From Planctomycetaceae bacterium (GTDB taxonomy: Bacteria; Planctomycetota; Planctomycetia; Pirellulales; Pirellulaceae): DNA of 34,660 nt. Each line of letters begins with the position of its first letter. Positions within the stretch are counted from its first letter, which is position 1. The translations under genes were made by a program, and so were the position numbers. Where the stretch lies: the NCBI GenBank assembly GCA_005773145.1, contig SXHS01000238.1, positions 1 through 34,660 of the forward strand. Reading direction: 5' to 3'. This document shows, piece by piece, positions 2,858 to 34,249 of this stretch. The notes below the pieces were generated by a model. That model was not told where the DNA came from and did no database searches. It was given only the letters and a program-made list of their open reading frames with translations.

Positions 2858-4255
2858 TTATGGCTGGGGACGGCGAACCAGCACCACGCGCAGATCGCAA
2901 ACATTGGTATGCGTGGGGCCGGTTTGCAGCAGTCCATCAACCTGTTGGAAGAAGGAATAGGCATCGTTACGGCGCAGGTAATCGGCTGGATCGAGTCCCC
3001 GCTGTCGGGCGGCACTTATGACTTCCGCTGTCAGGATGGCGCCGGCTGCATCTGTAGGCCCGTCCTCGCCGTCGCTGCCTCCGGACAGGAGTACCAACGA
3101 GGGACCGTGGGAGTTATCAAGGGCCGCAAGTTGTGGTTCGGTCCACAGTTCGGCCAGGGCGGCCAGCACGAGCTGCTGGTTGCGCCCCCCTTTCCCGCGT
3201 TGTTGCGCTTCGATCAGCTGCACAGTGGGCTCACCTCCGCTGATCAAGCAATCGGGGCCTGGGTTCGCCAGCATATGACGGGCCATTTGCAGCAGATGTC
3301 GTCCGGATTGCTCCGCCGTTCCCTCGGACGGAGTCCCCCCCAGCATCACATGCGAATAGCCGCGCCGTTCGGCCTCCTGTCCCGCTCCGTCCACGGCCGT
3401 GGCGGTGTTGCCCACGATCACATGCGTGCCGTGGCTGCTCGCGCGGCGCGTCACGGCCGGGGCCGGATCGCGAGTCGCCCGTTGCAAATGAGCCAGAACG
3501 TTGGGAGCGATACCTGCCGAGTCGGCGCCAAACTCACGCAAGATCCGCAGGGCCTGTTGTGGGTCCGGTGGTACATCGACGGTTGGGCCCGAAGCGATCA
3601 TGTCCAAGGGGTCCCCCAAGACATCGGAGATAATGAATGTGATCAGGTGGCCGGCTCGACAAGCGCGAGCCAAACCGCCCCCTTTGATGCGGCTAATGGC
3701 CTTGCGCACGGTGTTCAATTGGCGAATGTCGGCACCGGCTGCACTGAGAAATCGAGTCAGCGCCACCTTGTCTTCAAGCGTTACGCCGGGCACTGGAGCG
3801 GGGAGTAGCGCAGAGCCCCCCCCGGAGATCAGGCACAGGCAAACGTCCTGTGCCGACAATCCCGCCACCATCTGCAACATGTGCTCCGATCCGTGAATGC
3901 CCTCGGCCGTTGGTTCGTTGCAGCCTGCCGGCCGAGCCGGATGCAGATGAATTCGCCGCAAGGGCCGTAGACAATCGGCCGGAACATTCACCCATCCCGA
4001 TAGTTGCTTCTCTTGAAGCAGTGATTCACCGAGGGCCTGCTCAACGCCGGACGCCATGCTGGCCCCGGCCTTGCCAGCTCCCACCACCACCACGCGTCGC
4101 ACCTGATCGAGTCGCAGTCGCTGGTCGCCGAGGCGCAGCCAAGGACCCTCCACGGCCAAATGAGTGCGAACAAGCCGCTCCCCGCCTACCGCCTCCAATC
4201 CCGCGCGCCAAATCGCCTCAGCATCGTCTCGTAATTCAGCCGTTGATCGTTCCAT
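2858..4255 (-). CDS. Glycerate kinase, GckA/TtuD (MOFRL) type
   Basis: 'VVVGAGKAGASMASGVEQAL', 'CLISGGGSALLPAPVPGVTLEDK', 'LISGGEPTVQL...GGRNQQLVLAAL', 'LLSGGSDGEDGPTDAAGA'. Start chosen at MERSTAELRDD. Confidence 0.9.
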   Translation of the reverse strand: MERSTAELRDDAEAIWRAGLEAVGGERLVRTHLAVEGPWLRLGDQRLRLDQVRRVVVVGAGKAGASMASGVEQALGESLLQEKQLSGWVNVPADCLRPLRRIHLHPARPAGCNEPTAEGIHGSEHMLQMVAGLSAQDVCLCLISGGGSALLPAPVPGVTLEDKVALTRFLSAAGADIRQLNTVRKAISRIKGGGLARACRAGHLITFIISDVLGDPLDMIASGPTVDVPPDPQQALRILREFGADSAGIAPNVLAHLQRATRDPAPAVTRRASSHGTHVIVGNTATAVDGAGQEAERRGYSHVMLGGTPSEGTAEQSGRHLLQMARHMLANPGPDCLISGGEPTVQLIEAQQRGKGGRNQQLVLAALAELWTEPQLAALDNSHGPSLVLLSGGSDGEDGPTDAAGAILTAEVISAARQRGLDPADYLRRNDAYSFFQQVDGLLQTGPTHTNVCDLRVVLVRRPQP

Positions 4256-4477
4256 GGTCTGGTATTGTAACGCGTTCGAGCCGCCGACCCAACATCTCAG
4301 CCGCGAATCCACATGCTAGGGACGATCATTGACGGGGGCGACTGGCATTCAGTAGAGTGGGGGGGCCTGTGGCTGGCACATGGCACTCAGTGAGGACCGA
4401 AAGGTCGTCGTTCAATCGGCATTGGCACCCGGTTGGGATCATGCACACGGAACGTTAGACAAAGGGCAGGAAAGTCC

Positions 4478-6559
4478 ATGACCGATACCACTGGCATTGC
4501 GGACGTCGATCGGCTGGCCATTGATACCATTCGTACGCTGGCCATGGATGCGGTCCAACAGGCCAACAGTGGGCACCCGGGAACGCCCATGGCCCTGGCC
4601 CCAGTGACGTACGTCCTGTGGAACGAATTCCTAAAATACGATCCCACTCGCCCTCAGTGGCCGGTGCGCGACCGATTTGTCTTGTCATGCGGACACGCCT
4701 CGATGTTGCTCTACGCCATGCTGCATCTGGCGGGCGTGCGAAAGACGAAGCGGCAACCGAATGGAACGATCGTGGCCACGGACGAATGGGCCATTGGCGG
4801 GGAGGACCTGCGCAACTTTCGCCAGTTTGGCAGTCCTTGCGCCGGACATCCGGAATATGGTTATGCAGCTGGCATCGAGACCACCACAGGGCCGTTGGGG
4901 CAGGGCATTGGCAATTCGGTGGGGATGGCGATCGCGGCTCAATGGTTTGCGGCCCGCTACGGCCGTCCTGGCTTCGAGGACCTCTTTGCCTCGCGGGTCT
5001 ACGCGCTATGCAGCGACGGCGACATCATGGAAGGAGTTGGCTGTGAGGCCGCATCGTTGGCCGGCCATCTGAAGTTGGGCAATCTCTGTTGGATTTATGA
5101 CGATAATCGCATCACGATCGAGGGTAAGACGGAGTTGGCGTTTAGCGAAGATGTGGCGCGACGATTTCAAGGTCAGGGTTGGCACGTGCTGAGTGTCGAG
5201 GATGCCAATGACTTGACCGCAATACGCCAGGCTTTGACGCAGGCGTCGGGTCAGCAGTCCCAACCCACACTGATTGTGCTGCGCAGTGTGATTGCCTGGG
5301 GCTCCCCTGGCAAGGCAAATACGCACGGAGCCCACGGCTCACCACTGGGTGAGGACGAGGTGCGCCGCACGAAGCAAGTGTACGGGTGGCCGGAAGATGA
5401 GCACTTTCGGGTGCCGGAGGATGCGCGGCGGCATGTGGCCGAGACGTTGGGGGCGCGCGGCAAGTCGGCACGTCAGGCTTGGGATGTTCGTTATTCCCAG
5501 TATCAGCAGAAATTTCCGGATGCAGCCGCCGAGTTCCAAAGCGCGATCCACCATCAGTTACCCGCCGATTGGGAAACAGCGATTCCCACTTTCACCACGA
5601 AGGATCACCTGGCCACTCGCGTTTCCTCGGGCAAGGTCCTGAACGCCATCGGCAAGCGGCTTCCCTGGCTGGTGGGCGGGGCCGCCGATTTGGCCCCATC
5701 GACGAAGACTCTACTTGAGTTTGAGGGGGCGGGGCAGTTTTCCGCCGCGCAGCGCGGTGGCCGCAATTTGCATTTCGGCATTCGCGAACATGCCATGGCC
5801 TCGGCCGCCAACGGCATGTCACTCAGCGGACTCCGTCCCTATGTGGCCACATTCTTCGTGTTCAGCGACTATCTGCGTCCGGCGCTGCGACTCAGCGCTT
5901 TAATGCACCAACCGGTTTTGTACATCTTGACCCACGACTCGATCGGTCTGGGTGAGGACGGACCGACGCATCAACCGGTGGAGCAATTGGCCGCCTGCCG
6001 CGCCATCCCGGGATTGGTTGTGCTGCGGCCGGCCGATGCCAATGAGGTTGCCGAGTCCTATCGAGTGGCCATCCAGGGTTCCGATCGACCGGTGGCCCTG
6101 GTGCTAACACGCCAGGACGTTCCCACCTTCTGTCGGCAACGGTTTGCGCCGGCGACCGGGCTGGCACGAGGTGCCTATGTGATGGCCGAAGCGGGGAATG
6201 ACGTGCCCCAGGTCATCTTGATCGGAACGGGGAGTGAATTGCATTTGTGCGCCGAGGCTTACGATCGCTTGGTAGCGGCTGGTATTCGTGCCCGGTTGGT
6301 GAGTATGCCATCCTGGGAACTGTTTGAACAACAGGATGTGGCCTACCGGGAATCCGTGTTGCCGTCCCGTGTGACCGCACGCATTGCTGTGGAGGCGGGC
6401 ATACGCCAGGGGTGGGATCGGTATTTGGGGCCCCGTGGTCGGTTTCTAGGCATGGAGGGGTTTGGCTTGTCTGCCCCATATGAAGAACTCTACGCGCATT
6501 TCGGCCTGACGGTCGATCAAATCCATGCCACGGCGCTTGATCTCGTGGCCGACTCGTGA
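4478..6559 (+). CDS. tkt: Transketolase
   Basis: 'MDAVQQANSGHPGTPMALAPVTYVLW', 'GPLGQGIGNSVGMAIA', 'DGDIMEGVGCEAASLAGHLKLGNLCWIYDDNRITIEGKTEL', 'HDSIGLGEDGPTHQPVEQLAACRAIPGL'. An RBS-like gggcagga precedes ATG 4478. Confidence 0.97.
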   Translation: MTDTTGIADVDRLAIDTIRTLAMDAVQQANSGHPGTPMALAPVTYVLWNEFLKYDPTRPQWPVRDRFVLSCGHASMLLYAMLHLAGVRKTKRQPNGTIVATDEWAIGGEDLRNFRQFGSPCAGHPEYGYAAGIETTTGPLGQGIGNSVGMAIAAQWFAARYGRPGFEDLFASRVYALCSDGDIMEGVGCEAASLAGHLKLGNLCWIYDDNRITIEGKTELAFSEDVARRFQGQGWHVLSVEDANDLTAIRQALTQASGQQSQPTLIVLRSVIAWGSPGKANTHGAHGSPLGEDEVRRTKQVYGWPEDEHFRVPEDARRHVAETLGARGKSARQAWDVRYSQYQQKFPDAAAEFQSAIHHQLPADWETAIPTFTTKDHLATRVSSGKVLNAIGKRLPWLVGGAADLAPSTKTLLEFEGAGQFSAAQRGGRNLHFGIREHAMASAANGMSLSGLRPYVATFFVFSDYLRPALRLSALMHQPVLYILTHDSIGLGEDGPTHQPVEQLAACRAIPGLVVLRPADANEVAESYRVAIQGSDRPVALVLTRQDVPTFCRQRFAPATGLARGAYVMAEAGNDVPQVILIGTGSELHLCAEAYDRLVAAGIRARLVSMPSWELFEQQDVAYRESVLPSRVTARIAVEAGIRQGWDRYLGPRGRFLGMEGFGLSAPYEELYAHFGLTVDQIHATALDLVADS

Positions 6560-31582: not shown

Positions 31583-31870
31583 TTAGCGCCTCAAACCTGC
31601 CACGGGCACCCCAAAACTCGAGAAAATGCTAGCAGTTTTGGTCCCCACACCGCGGCGTCTTATCGTGCGGTGGGCCGAGATTGTCAAGATGAATTCTACC
31701 GTTGAGGTTCTTGACCACAACAAAGGCCGCCACGGCCATGATGTCGAGGGCGATGGCTCGTCCACAAGTCCATACACCAGAAGCGGAACGGCAAAGAGCG
31801 CGCCACCGCCACCAGTCAGCCCCAGCGCGAGACCAACCATCGCGCCAAAGATTATGGTGAGCCACAGCAT
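31583..31870 (-). pseudogene. Truncated/frameshifted sulfite exporter TauE/SafE family fragment
   Basis: 'MLWLTIIFGAMVGLALGLTGGGGALFAVPLLVYGL' matches the TauE/SafE first helix region, then the frame becomes unrelated (VDEPSPSTSWPWRPLLW...). The rest of the transporter is absent. Confidence 0.75.
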
Positions 31871-31882
31871 CGGAGGCCTCCG

Positions 31883-33193
31883 TCACTTCGTACAGGCCGT
31901 ACCGCAGGTGGTGGATACGTCATCGGACGGAGCTGATTCGGTGGGTAGGCTGGAAGCAATCCACGCCTTGATCCCTCCGACAAGATCAACGACGTTGGTC
32001 CAACCCGCGTCGCCCAACAAGCTCGCAGCAATTGCCGAGCGGTAGCCCCCTTCACAGTGAACCACGACCGAGCGGTCCCGAGGCACTTCGGCCAACCGTT
32101 CTTGCAACTCAGTCAAGGGAATATTGTGGCTACAAGCCAGATGTCCGGATAGCCATTCTTTCTTGGAGCGAACATCGATTACGAACGGACTCGGTTGCTC
32201 GGCCAATCGTCCCGCTAGTGCATGTGCGGTGATCCTGGCGATTGCCCGGATCAGTTCAGGCCGATTTTCAAGTGCTGCCATACCGCCTGCGAGGTAGCCC
32301 ACGACATTGTCGAAGCCAATGCGACCCAGCCGCATCACCGCCTCTTCTTCGCTCCCCGGCTCAGCAATCACTACGATCGGCCGGTCGTGGCCGAGAATCG
32401 CCCCGCACCAAGTGGCATACTTTCCTTTGAAGCCGATGTTGAGTGCACCGGCGAAATGCACACCCTCGAAATCGACCGCTTCGCGGACGTCGACCACTTG
32501 CGCCTGCTGGTTCTTCGACTGCAATACATCATCGACGCTCAGCGCTTTCAGCGACCTGCTGAGCGTTAACTCCAAGTCGGGGCGTTCTTGTCGATTTTTG
32601 ATGGCGTCGTATACGAAATATTCTGGTGCCTCCGGCTGGTCACTGGTCACAAGCTGCTTGAATTCAGGGAGACTCATAGGTTGTAGCGAGTAGTTGAATC
32701 GCTTTTGCTCGCCGATCGTCGAGACGGTTTCCGTGCTCAAGCTCTTGCCACACATCGATCCCGCGCCATGGGCCGGATAGACGAGCGTGGTATCCGGCAG
32801 GGCGCGCAGCTTATCAAGTGAGTGGTATAACATTTCGGCCAACTCGTCCGCCGTAACCCCGATGGAAGCTAAGAGATCGGGGCGTCCTACATCGCCGATG
32901 AACAGCGTATCACCAGTCAGGACCGCATGAGGTACGGTGGCATTCTGGGTGCAGCCGAACACCAGCAACGAAATTCCCTCGGGCGTGTGACCGGGCGTTT
33001 CCAGGAACTGGATACGAACATCTCCCAATTCAATCTTGTCGCCATCCTCTACGGCCTGAAACTCGAATTCGGGTTGTGCCCGGGCCCCCATCACGATGCG
33101 TGCCCCGGCCCGGTTTCGCAACTCAATGTGGCCCGCCCGACTTTGCGCACCTCGGCCAATGGTTGCCCGAGTGAAGTTGCAGGGGCACGTCAT
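31883..33193 (-). CDS. CstB/Blh-like MBL-fold protein fused to two rhodanese domains, N-terminally truncated MBL
   Basis: 'ELRNRAGARIVMGARA...FLETPGHTPEGISLLVF', 'TGDTLFIGDVGRPDL', 'VYPAHGAGSMCGKSLSTETVSTIGEQK'; rhodanese domain without Cys, then rhodanese 'VVVHCEGGYRSAIAASLL'. Start MTCPCNF overlaps the upstream stop (ATGA). Confidence 0.8.
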   Translation of the reverse strand: MTCPCNFTRATIGRGAQSRAGHIELRNRAGARIVMGARAQPEFEFQAVEDGDKIELGDVRIQFLETPGHTPEGISLLVFGCTQNATVPHAVLTGDTLFIGDVGRPDLLASIGVTADELAEMLYHSLDKLRALPDTTLVYPAHGAGSMCGKSLSTETVSTIGEQKRFNYSLQPMSLPEFKQLVTSDQPEAPEYFVYDAIKNRQERPDLELTLSRSLKALSVDDVLQSKNQQAQVVDVREAVDFEGVHFAGALNIGFKGKYATWCGAILGHDRPIVVIAEPGSEEEAVMRLGRIGFDNVVGYLAGGMAALENRPELIRAIARITAHALAGRLAEQPSPFVIDVRSKKEWLSGHLACSHNIPLTELQERLAEVPRDRSVVVHCEGGYRSAIAASLLGDAGWTNVVDLVGGIKAWIASSLPTESAPSDDVSTTCGTACTK

Positions 33194-33792
33194 CCACAGC
33201 ACGACGTCGACGACTGCCGCGAACCCTTGGGATTCTTGGTGTTTCCGCCGCACGCTGGGGTTTTCGGCCCTTGGTTCCACGGCATGCGGGCCAGCAGCAT
33301 TGCCATGCCGCAGGTATCCGTAATACCGGCAAACACGAGTCCGGCGCCGACGAACGCTGCCAAGCCAATCCAATAGGGACTGACGAACGCGCTCAGCGCC
33401 GATCCCACCAAGACCAGTGATCCGGCAGCGATCCTCACCTGGCGTTCGAGCGACATCGCTTTGGGGCCGCGGACGACCGGCAAACCGGCCTGATCCCAGG
33501 CCAGCGTCCCACCTTCCACGTTGACGACATGTGCAAGTCCGGCCATACGAAGTTTCTCGCAAGCCTGTTGTCCGCGAGCGCCGGATCGACAGATCACGTA
33601 CAGCGTTTGGGTCGTGCCGTTGCTTCCCGTGGCAATTTGCGTTGCGTCCAACTGATCGAGAGGCACATTGCGGGCGAATGCCACGTGAACTTCGCGGTAC
33701 TCGACCGGAGTTCGCACGTCGATCAATTCGACCGGCGCTCCGGACTGATTGAGCTCGAACAATCGCGCGGGGGTGATGGTGGTGACGCTCAT
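33190..33792 (-). CDS. Rhodanese + DUF2892-type membrane domain protein
   Basis: 'VELIDVRTPVEYREVHVAFARNVPLDQLD', active loop 'VICRSGARGQQACEKL', then a TM region 'VRIAAGSLVLVGSALSAFVSPYWIGLAAFVGAGLVFAGITDTCGMAMLLARMPWN'. Start MSVTTITP after aaaaggag. Confidence 0.9.
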   Translation of the reverse strand: MSVTTITPARLFELNQSGAPVELIDVRTPVEYREVHVAFARNVPLDQLDATQIATGSNGTTQTLYVICRSGARGQQACEKLRMAGLAHVVNVEGGTLAWDQAGLPVVRGPKAMSLERQVRIAAGSLVLVGSALSAFVSPYWIGLAAFVGAGLVFAGITDTCGMAMLLARMPWNQGPKTPACGGNTKNPKGSRQSSTSCCG

Positions 33793-33837: not shown

Positions 33838-33865
33838 GTAATATCGGAAAGTGTCGAACTGTTAG
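33838..33865 (-). promoter_or_regulatory. Second copy of the arsR promoter/operator-like element, upstream of the rhodanese gene
   Basis: Minus strand CTAACA-N16-TATTAC. Shares ACAGTTCG and CGATAT at identical spacing with the arsR element (19/28 identities by eye). Confidence 0.5.
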
Positions 33866-33881
33866 CGCACGAAAAAATCCG

Positions 33882-34214
33882 CTAGTAGTTCCGTGGGCGA
33901 TCGAACCGCTCTTCTATGCACTGGAGGATACTCTTCAGGTGCGGTTCGGCCACCTGGTAATACACCCGGCGGCCATCCTTTTGACTGGAGAGGAATCCGC
34001 AACGCTGCATCAGCCGCAGGTGCTCCGAGGCCATCGCAGTTGGCAACTCGCAGGCCTCAGCCAGCTCCGTCACCGTATGATCTCCCCGCAGCAGCAGCTG
34101 AATCATCCGCAGCCGATGCGGGTGGGCCAAGACGCGCAGGCATTCGGCGGCCCGTCCCAAGTCGTCTAGGCTCGTCAATCCCCGTTTGGTACCGGTGTTC
34201 TTCTTGCCAACCAT
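33882..34214 (-). CDS. ArsR-family winged-helix transcriptional regulator
   Basis: 'AAECLRVLAHPHRLRMIQLLLRGDHTVTELAEACELPTAMASEHLRLMQRCGFLSSQKDGRRVYYQVAEPHLKSILQCIEERF'. Start taken at MVGKKNTGTK because the upstream MQYM ATG lies inside the -10 box. Confidence 0.9.
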   Translation of the reverse strand: MVGKKNTGTKRGLTSLDDLGRAAECLRVLAHPHRLRMIQLLLRGDHTVTELAEACELPTAMASEHLRLMQRCGFLSSQKDGRRVYYQVAEPHLKSILQCIEERFDRPRNY

Positions 34215-34221
34215 ATACTGC

Positions 34222-34249
34222 ATTATATCGACAGGTTCCGAACTGTCAA
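34222..34249 (-). promoter_or_regulatory. Consensus sigma70-type promoter of arsR with dyad in the spacer
   Basis: Minus strand TTGACA (34249-34244), 16-nt spacer GTTCGGAACCTGTCGA, TATAAT (34227-34222). GTTC-G-GAAC dyad at the start of the spacer. Confidence 0.7.

Follow-up and report, generated by a model that had tools for sequence, protein, structure and literature searches.

A conserved pair of predicted operator-promoters around arsR in a putative planctomycete sulfide regulon

The window, the whole stretch of 34,660 nucleotides analyzed here, is an entire contig (C217) of a 3.32-Mb Planctomycetaceae draft genome that is 81% complete. At the contig end, the minus strand carries arsR (33882..34214), which encodes a 110-aa protein of the ArsR/SmtB winged-helix repressor family, followed by a gene for a 200-aa rhodanese with a YgaP-like transmembrane protein (33190..33792) whose Shine-Dalgarno sequence, AAAAGGAG, lies at 33806-33799. 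The rhodanese stop codon overlaps, in an ATGA, the start ATG of a CstB/ETHE1-like metallo-beta-lactamase/double-rhodanese gene (31883..33193), and a TauE/SafE remnant of 95 aa (31583..31870) comes last. Neither of the last two reading frames appears intact. The dioxygenase-like gene aligns to its relatives only from GHIELRN on, so that its N-terminal ~60-70 residues, the preceding THFHADF segment included, are missing, and a search of the draft genome for a second CstB/ETHE1-like copy returned none. The TauE frame is unrelated to its relatives after ~43 matching residues. Either the pathway is decaying in this organism or the draft is wrong at 31583-33220.

Immediately upstream of arsR lies P1 (34222..34249, minus strand), a predicted promoter of the sigma-70/A type in which TTGACA (34249-34244) and TATAAT (34227-34222) are separated by 16 nt and match the consensus at 12/12 positions. 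A prior reading made from the letters of this DNA (hereafter, the sequence-only reading) had described a perfect TTGACA-N16-TATAAT here, with a -10 box overlapping an upstream in-frame ATG (MQYM) and 7 nt between TATAAT and the next ATG (MVGKK). Each of these statements is borne out by the coordinates: the promoter is exact at 34249-34222, and the spacer GCAGTAT (34215..34221, minus strand) leads to an ATG at 34214. A pattern search of the 3.32-Mb draft genome found a single perfect TTGACA-N16-18-TATAAT, with 0.18 expected from composition. Inside P1, overlapping both its -35 and -10 boxes, is the predicted operator O1 (AGTTCGGAACCTGTCGATAT; 34225..34244, minus strand), with the inverted-repeat core TCG-N2-A-N2-T-N2-CGA, although the window's own O1 is a degenerate palindrome. 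The longer repeat form TCGNNANNTNNCGATAT has exactly two matches in the genome, at O1 and at a second predicted operator, O2, on the other side of arsR; the reversed control has none.

Most of 118 relatives have a clear arsR ortholog, and E values drop sharply, from about 1e-29 to 1e-14, between this subfamily and other ArsR proteins. We fetched 83 loci from the relatives and 80 from the GTDB collection, the latter including records of Blastopirellula marina, Lacipirellula limnantheis, Planctomicrobium, and Schlesneria. Removing identical loci left 151 non-redundant ones; near-identical loci remain among them, so the counts given here are not counts of independent events. Nearly all orthologs are preceded by TTGACA, two bases, TCG-N2-A-N2-T-N2-CGA, and TATATT, an inverted repeat set into a predicted sigma-70 promoter, and in most of them the register is that of P1. 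The sequence-only reading had named lack of conservation in related operons as evidence that would count against it, and it passed this test: the core lies in register within 250 nt upstream of arsR in 131/151 loci (20 shuffles gave a mean of 1.35 and a maximum of 4), and 99/151 carry the full string TTGACA-N2-TCG..A..T..CGATA. Rhodanese-YgaP is the next gene in 112/151. Where the rhodanese gene has room for a promoter of its own, with an arsR-rhodanese gap of at least 60 nt, a second operator scored at 7 of 8 positions or better is present in 86 of 99 loci, compared with 0 of 13 at shorter gaps, a contrast that is partly geometric because short gaps leave little room. The 87% rate nevertheless far exceeds the 3-4% that a hand estimate gives for chance in a 90-nt stretch.

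Because only 7 nt separate TATAAT from the ATG, the predicted transcription start of arsR falls at 34215/34214, at or next to the start codon, and together with the missing Shine-Dalgarno this makes a leaderless or near-leaderless mRNA plausible. Planctomycetes have leaderless-type signals in non-SD genes (PMC5397173); our literature search for a planctomycete transcription start site map found no evident one. Across the 138 loci with both a site and a start, the distance from -10 box to start is usually 14 to 32 nt, and an SD-like string is present in 101 of the 130 leaders of at least 14 nt. Spacings of 6-10 nt without an SD-preceded alternative occur in 6/138 (the window, L048, L061, L162, L187, and L095), a state that needs six separate changes on a weakly resolved arsR tree. 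The sequence-only reading of a leaderless arsR is therefore consistent with the spacing in the window, but the predicted layout is exceptional among orthologs and not the conserved feature. It is also conceivable, though rather doubtful, that arsR is not leaderless at all, its translation beginning at an in-frame TTG that lies 43 nt past the -10 box, or its transcription beginning further upstream. Conservation is poor N-terminal to residue 13 and the arsR frame is open far upstream, as this alternative would allow, but the TTG lacks a suitably spaced Shine-Dalgarno, P1 matches the full consensus at a position conserved in orthologs, and the distance from the ATG to the conserved core fits the N termini of orthologs.

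The second element occupies the arsR-rhodanese intergenic region. In a search of both strands of the window, CTAACAGTTCGACACTTTCCGATATTAC (33865-33838, minus strand) was the best non-self match to the P1 28-mer, with 19/28 identities, which confirms the diverged copy of the same internal spacing that had been reported there. The reverse complement of the element itself ranks next, a result of its partly palindromic sequence. Shuffling the DNA between the arsR and rhodanese genes gives a probability of 0.00025 for at least 19/28. The element comprises O2, an inverted repeat (AGTTCGACACTTTCCGATAT; 33841..33860, minus strand), and a weak putative promoter, P2, with CTAACA-N16-TATTAC (33838..33865, minus strand) in the same register as P1. 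In relatives, O2 often reads TCG..A..T..CGACAT, 3' of the arsR stop, with degenerate -35/-10 boxes in the P1 register and a weakly conserved AT at the predicted transcription start. The proposal that both operators overlap the RNA polymerase site fits O1, inside P1, and is less certain for O2, where the -35 and -10 boxes are weak.

A T6 tract (33872..33877, minus strand) lies 11 nt upstream of O2 in the window; relatives usually have T6-T8 at 7-8 nt. The position of this tract in relatives is tied to the operator (mostly 7-8 nt) and varies from 0 to 168 nt relative to the arsR stop, and the tract is probably an UP-element-like part of the second promoter. We consider it unlikely that O2 is instead a roadblock or auxiliary operator and the T-tract the U-run of an arsR terminator. 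Such an arrangement would suit the poor -35/-10 boxes at O2 and the strong hairpin found just before the T-tract in a few loci (L070, L089, and L165), but hairpin shuffles, in which a significant adjoining hairpin appeared in only 18% of loci, lent the terminator weak support and we set it aside. The T-tract spacing also follows the operator and not the arsR stop, O2 is absent at gaps below 60 nt, as expected if it served a separate promoter, and the AT at its predicted transcription start is weakly conserved.

The 20-bp operator occurs at 22 places in 16 relatives, with 0 control matches. Most of these are the arsR-flanking sites, and seven are unlinked to arsR, five of the seven with a TTGAC promoter context. 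These five precede gene sets coding for DUF1641-SQR, rhodanese-YgaP, rhodanese-TauE-dioxygenase, and, in two sister genomes, TauE-dioxygenase. The other two were discarded, L128 because the match falls where a coding sequence begins and L132 for want of promoter context. The sulfide:quinone oxidoreductase (SQR) encoded after the DUF1641 gene matches mitochondrial SQR chains at 1.5e-127, and the dioxygenase-like third gene of relatives matches 3r2u, which we take to be Staphylococcus aureus CstB (E 5e-63), and ETHE1 (4chl, E 4.5e-12). Relatives thus match the CstB/ETHE1 persulfide dioxygenase-rhodanese, whereas the window copy is without its metal-binding THFHADF. In L088, the whole set follows arsR: rhodanese, dioxygenase-rhodanese, TauE, DsrE, and SQR. 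Linked and unlinked predicted sites alike would place sulfide-oxidation genes under the control of this operator, and because the sites adjoin rhodanese, dioxygenase, TauE, and SQR genes, a sulfide or sulfane-sulfur signal is the likely input of the regulator. We found no paper in the open-access literature that joins ArsR, rhodanese, sulfide, and Planctomycetes. Two unlinked loci merit separate mention. At L216, the DUF1641 gene (4014-4772, minus strand) lies directly before the sulfide:quinone oxidoreductase gene under the same operator-promoter, a hint that DUF1641 may have a role in sulfide oxidation. At L217 (G018 C10, operator near 729564), the unlinked operator-promoter precedes a rhodanese-YgaP gene, and an in-frame ATG follows its -10 box by only a few nucleotides; another ATG lies further along.

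By domain and fold, the window ArsR is a member of the ArsR/SmtB repressor family: Pfam HTH_5 scores 34.7 bits (cutoff 22), and the AF2 model (pLDDT 92.7) has the alpha1-alpha4-beta-beta-alpha5 order and matches SmtB, HlyU, SqrR, and BigR with a Foldseek probability of 1.00, its best fold matches being SmtB proteins. The cysteines conserved in the family are Cys25 (alpha-1), Cys55, Cys72, and Cys99 (alpha-5). The persulfide sensors SqrR, BigR, YgaV, and HlyU form ArsR SSN cluster 4 and are defined by Cys in alpha-2 and alpha-5 (PMC10509353). That pair is absent here: the residue aligned with the BigR alpha-2 Cys is Gln39 in 138/138 sequences, and Cys99 is present in 133/138. Cys25 is invariant in 79 sequences, an observation independent of its use in selecting the rows of the 138-sequence set. 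The operator also departs from the ATTC-N8-GAAT of SqrR and YgaV (PMC9774250), being TCG-N8-CGA with the same N8 geometry. The persulfide-type label fits the predicted regulon, although the regulator is without the alpha-2 Cys that is canonical for known persulfide sensors.

Several known systems resemble this one in part. SqrR (Rhodobacter), BigR (Xylella), and SoxR (Hyphomicrobium) share its fold, its repressor-like layout, and sites adjoining SQR, rhodanese, dioxygenase-like, and TauE-type genes, but here Gln39 replaces their alpha-2 Cys, the conserved cysteines are in alpha-1 and alpha-5, and the operator is different. In Escherichia coli ygaVP, the gene after that of an ArsR-family repressor likewise encodes a rhodanese carrying a YgaP-like transmembrane domain, and the operator, an N8 inverted repeat, lies where RNA polymerase would bind for that operon (PMC9774250). 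The E. coli operator, however, is ATTC-N8-GAAT and not TCG-N8-CGA, YgaV is of the alpha-2/alpha-5 Cys class, unlike the planctomycete ArsR, and the planctomycete lineage adds a second operator before the rhodanese gene. The metal sensors SmtB, CadC, and ArsR have the same ArsR/SmtB fold, and metal- or arsenic-sensing members use an alpha-3 CxC or an alpha-5 DxHx10HxxE ligand motif (PMC10509353, PMC8960804). It is improbable that the present regulator answers a metal or an arsenical and not sulfane sulfur. NCBIfam does assign it to a generic metalloregulator ArsR/SmtB subfamily (81 bits, cutoff 55), and Cys25, Cys55, Cys72, and Cys99 could bind a thiophilic metal; yet neither motif is found in its sequence, which has EACELP and EPHLKSILQCIEERF instead, and the linked and unlinked neighbors encode SQR, rhodanese, dioxygenase-like, and TauE proteins, not metal efflux.

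The sequence-only reading also suggested that one regulator acts at two promoters, its own and that of the sulfur genes. This is supported by the conservation of the core and of O2 across loci (131/151, and 86/99 vs 0/13) and by the unlinked copies before sulfide-oxidation genes. Within loci, O1 and O2 agree in half-site type (TTCG type, 11/13 vs 6/86; Fisher p 7e-9, uncorrected for relatedness), and the window pair, AGTTCGGAA... and AGTTCGACA..., is of the TTCG type at both sites. Recognition helix alpha-4 of ArsR begins with residue 59, and a Thr stands there in 18/18 TTCG-type loci, as against 5/120 of the remainder. This covariation, which would fit one ArsR reading both sites, is only suggestive, because it represents one (well-supported) to five independent contrasts on the tree, too few for significance. 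That the elements belong to another regulator, with ArsR merely encoded between them and not binding, is very improbable: linkage alone is no proof of ArsR binding, but in the Pirellulales and allied lineages sampled the element keeps to this single ArsR subfamily, its half-site type varies with the residue that opens the ArsR recognition helix, and its N8 inverted-repeat geometry is that of the SqrR/YgaV site ATTC-N8-GAAT (PMC9774250).

Taken as a whole, the sequence comparisons indicate that the dual operator-promoter system of this predicted planctomycete sulfide regulon is real and conserved and is a variant of the ygaVP/bigR/sqrR theme, and they lend strong support to the proposed regulatory logic. 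Our preferred reading, to which we assign a probability of about 0.82, is that ArsR is an autoregulated repressor of a sulfide/sulfane-sulfur detoxification regulon acting at O1 and O2. An ArsR dimer would bind the 20-bp inverted repeat, with the consensus ATRTCG-N2-A-N2-T-N2-CGATAT and an AGTTCG variant in the window. On O1, inside the arsR promoter, it would exclude RNA polymerase; on O2, shortly before the rhodanese-YgaP gene, it would cover a weaker promoter that keeps the register of P1, where the T-tract at near-fixed spacing would act like an UP element. Reactive sulfur would modify ArsR, most likely via Cys25 and Cys99, and release it from both sites, raising expression of the regulator and of the rhodanese, dioxygenase, and exporter. 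In the window, where the arsR start codon would lie about at the transcription start, leaderless translation of arsR is probable, whereas most orthologs have a short SD leader. Because the dioxygenase-like and TauE genes look broken, this control may be partly vestigial in the present genome.

More tentatively, and at slightly less than even odds, these proteins could represent a planctomycete-wide ArsR class that senses sulfur through a Cys25-Cys99 dithiol, has an invariant Gln for the alpha-2 Cys and a TCG-N8-CGA operator, and relies on two kinds of operator-promoter, a consensus form driving the regulator itself and a T-tract-assisted form driving the enzymes. Such a class may add a second sulfur-sensing chemistry to the ArsR superfamily. 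The predicted Planctomycetota sulfide regulon has a named regulator, operator, and targets, of which we found no earlier account in the open-access literature, and it could be tested in relatives that can be grown in culture, Blastopirellula marina or Lacipirellula among them. Its arsR loci also form a natural series: under an unchanged promoter, the start codon appears to move from an SD leader to the transcription start, six times on the weakly resolved tree.

Two further observations concern arsR and the contig end. The window arsR is up to 82% identical to Planctomyces, Schlesneria, and Planctomycetaceae records, compared with up to 77% in its own order. The arsR tree (100 columns) is poorly resolved, and horizontal transfer from Planctomycetales, which have the nearest arsR at 82% identity, or paralogy is possible. 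Within the draft genome, the 15-mer CGGTCGCTGCCTCCG occurs only at the contig end (34344-34580, minus strand), in three copies, in a region that also contains a duplicated stretch.
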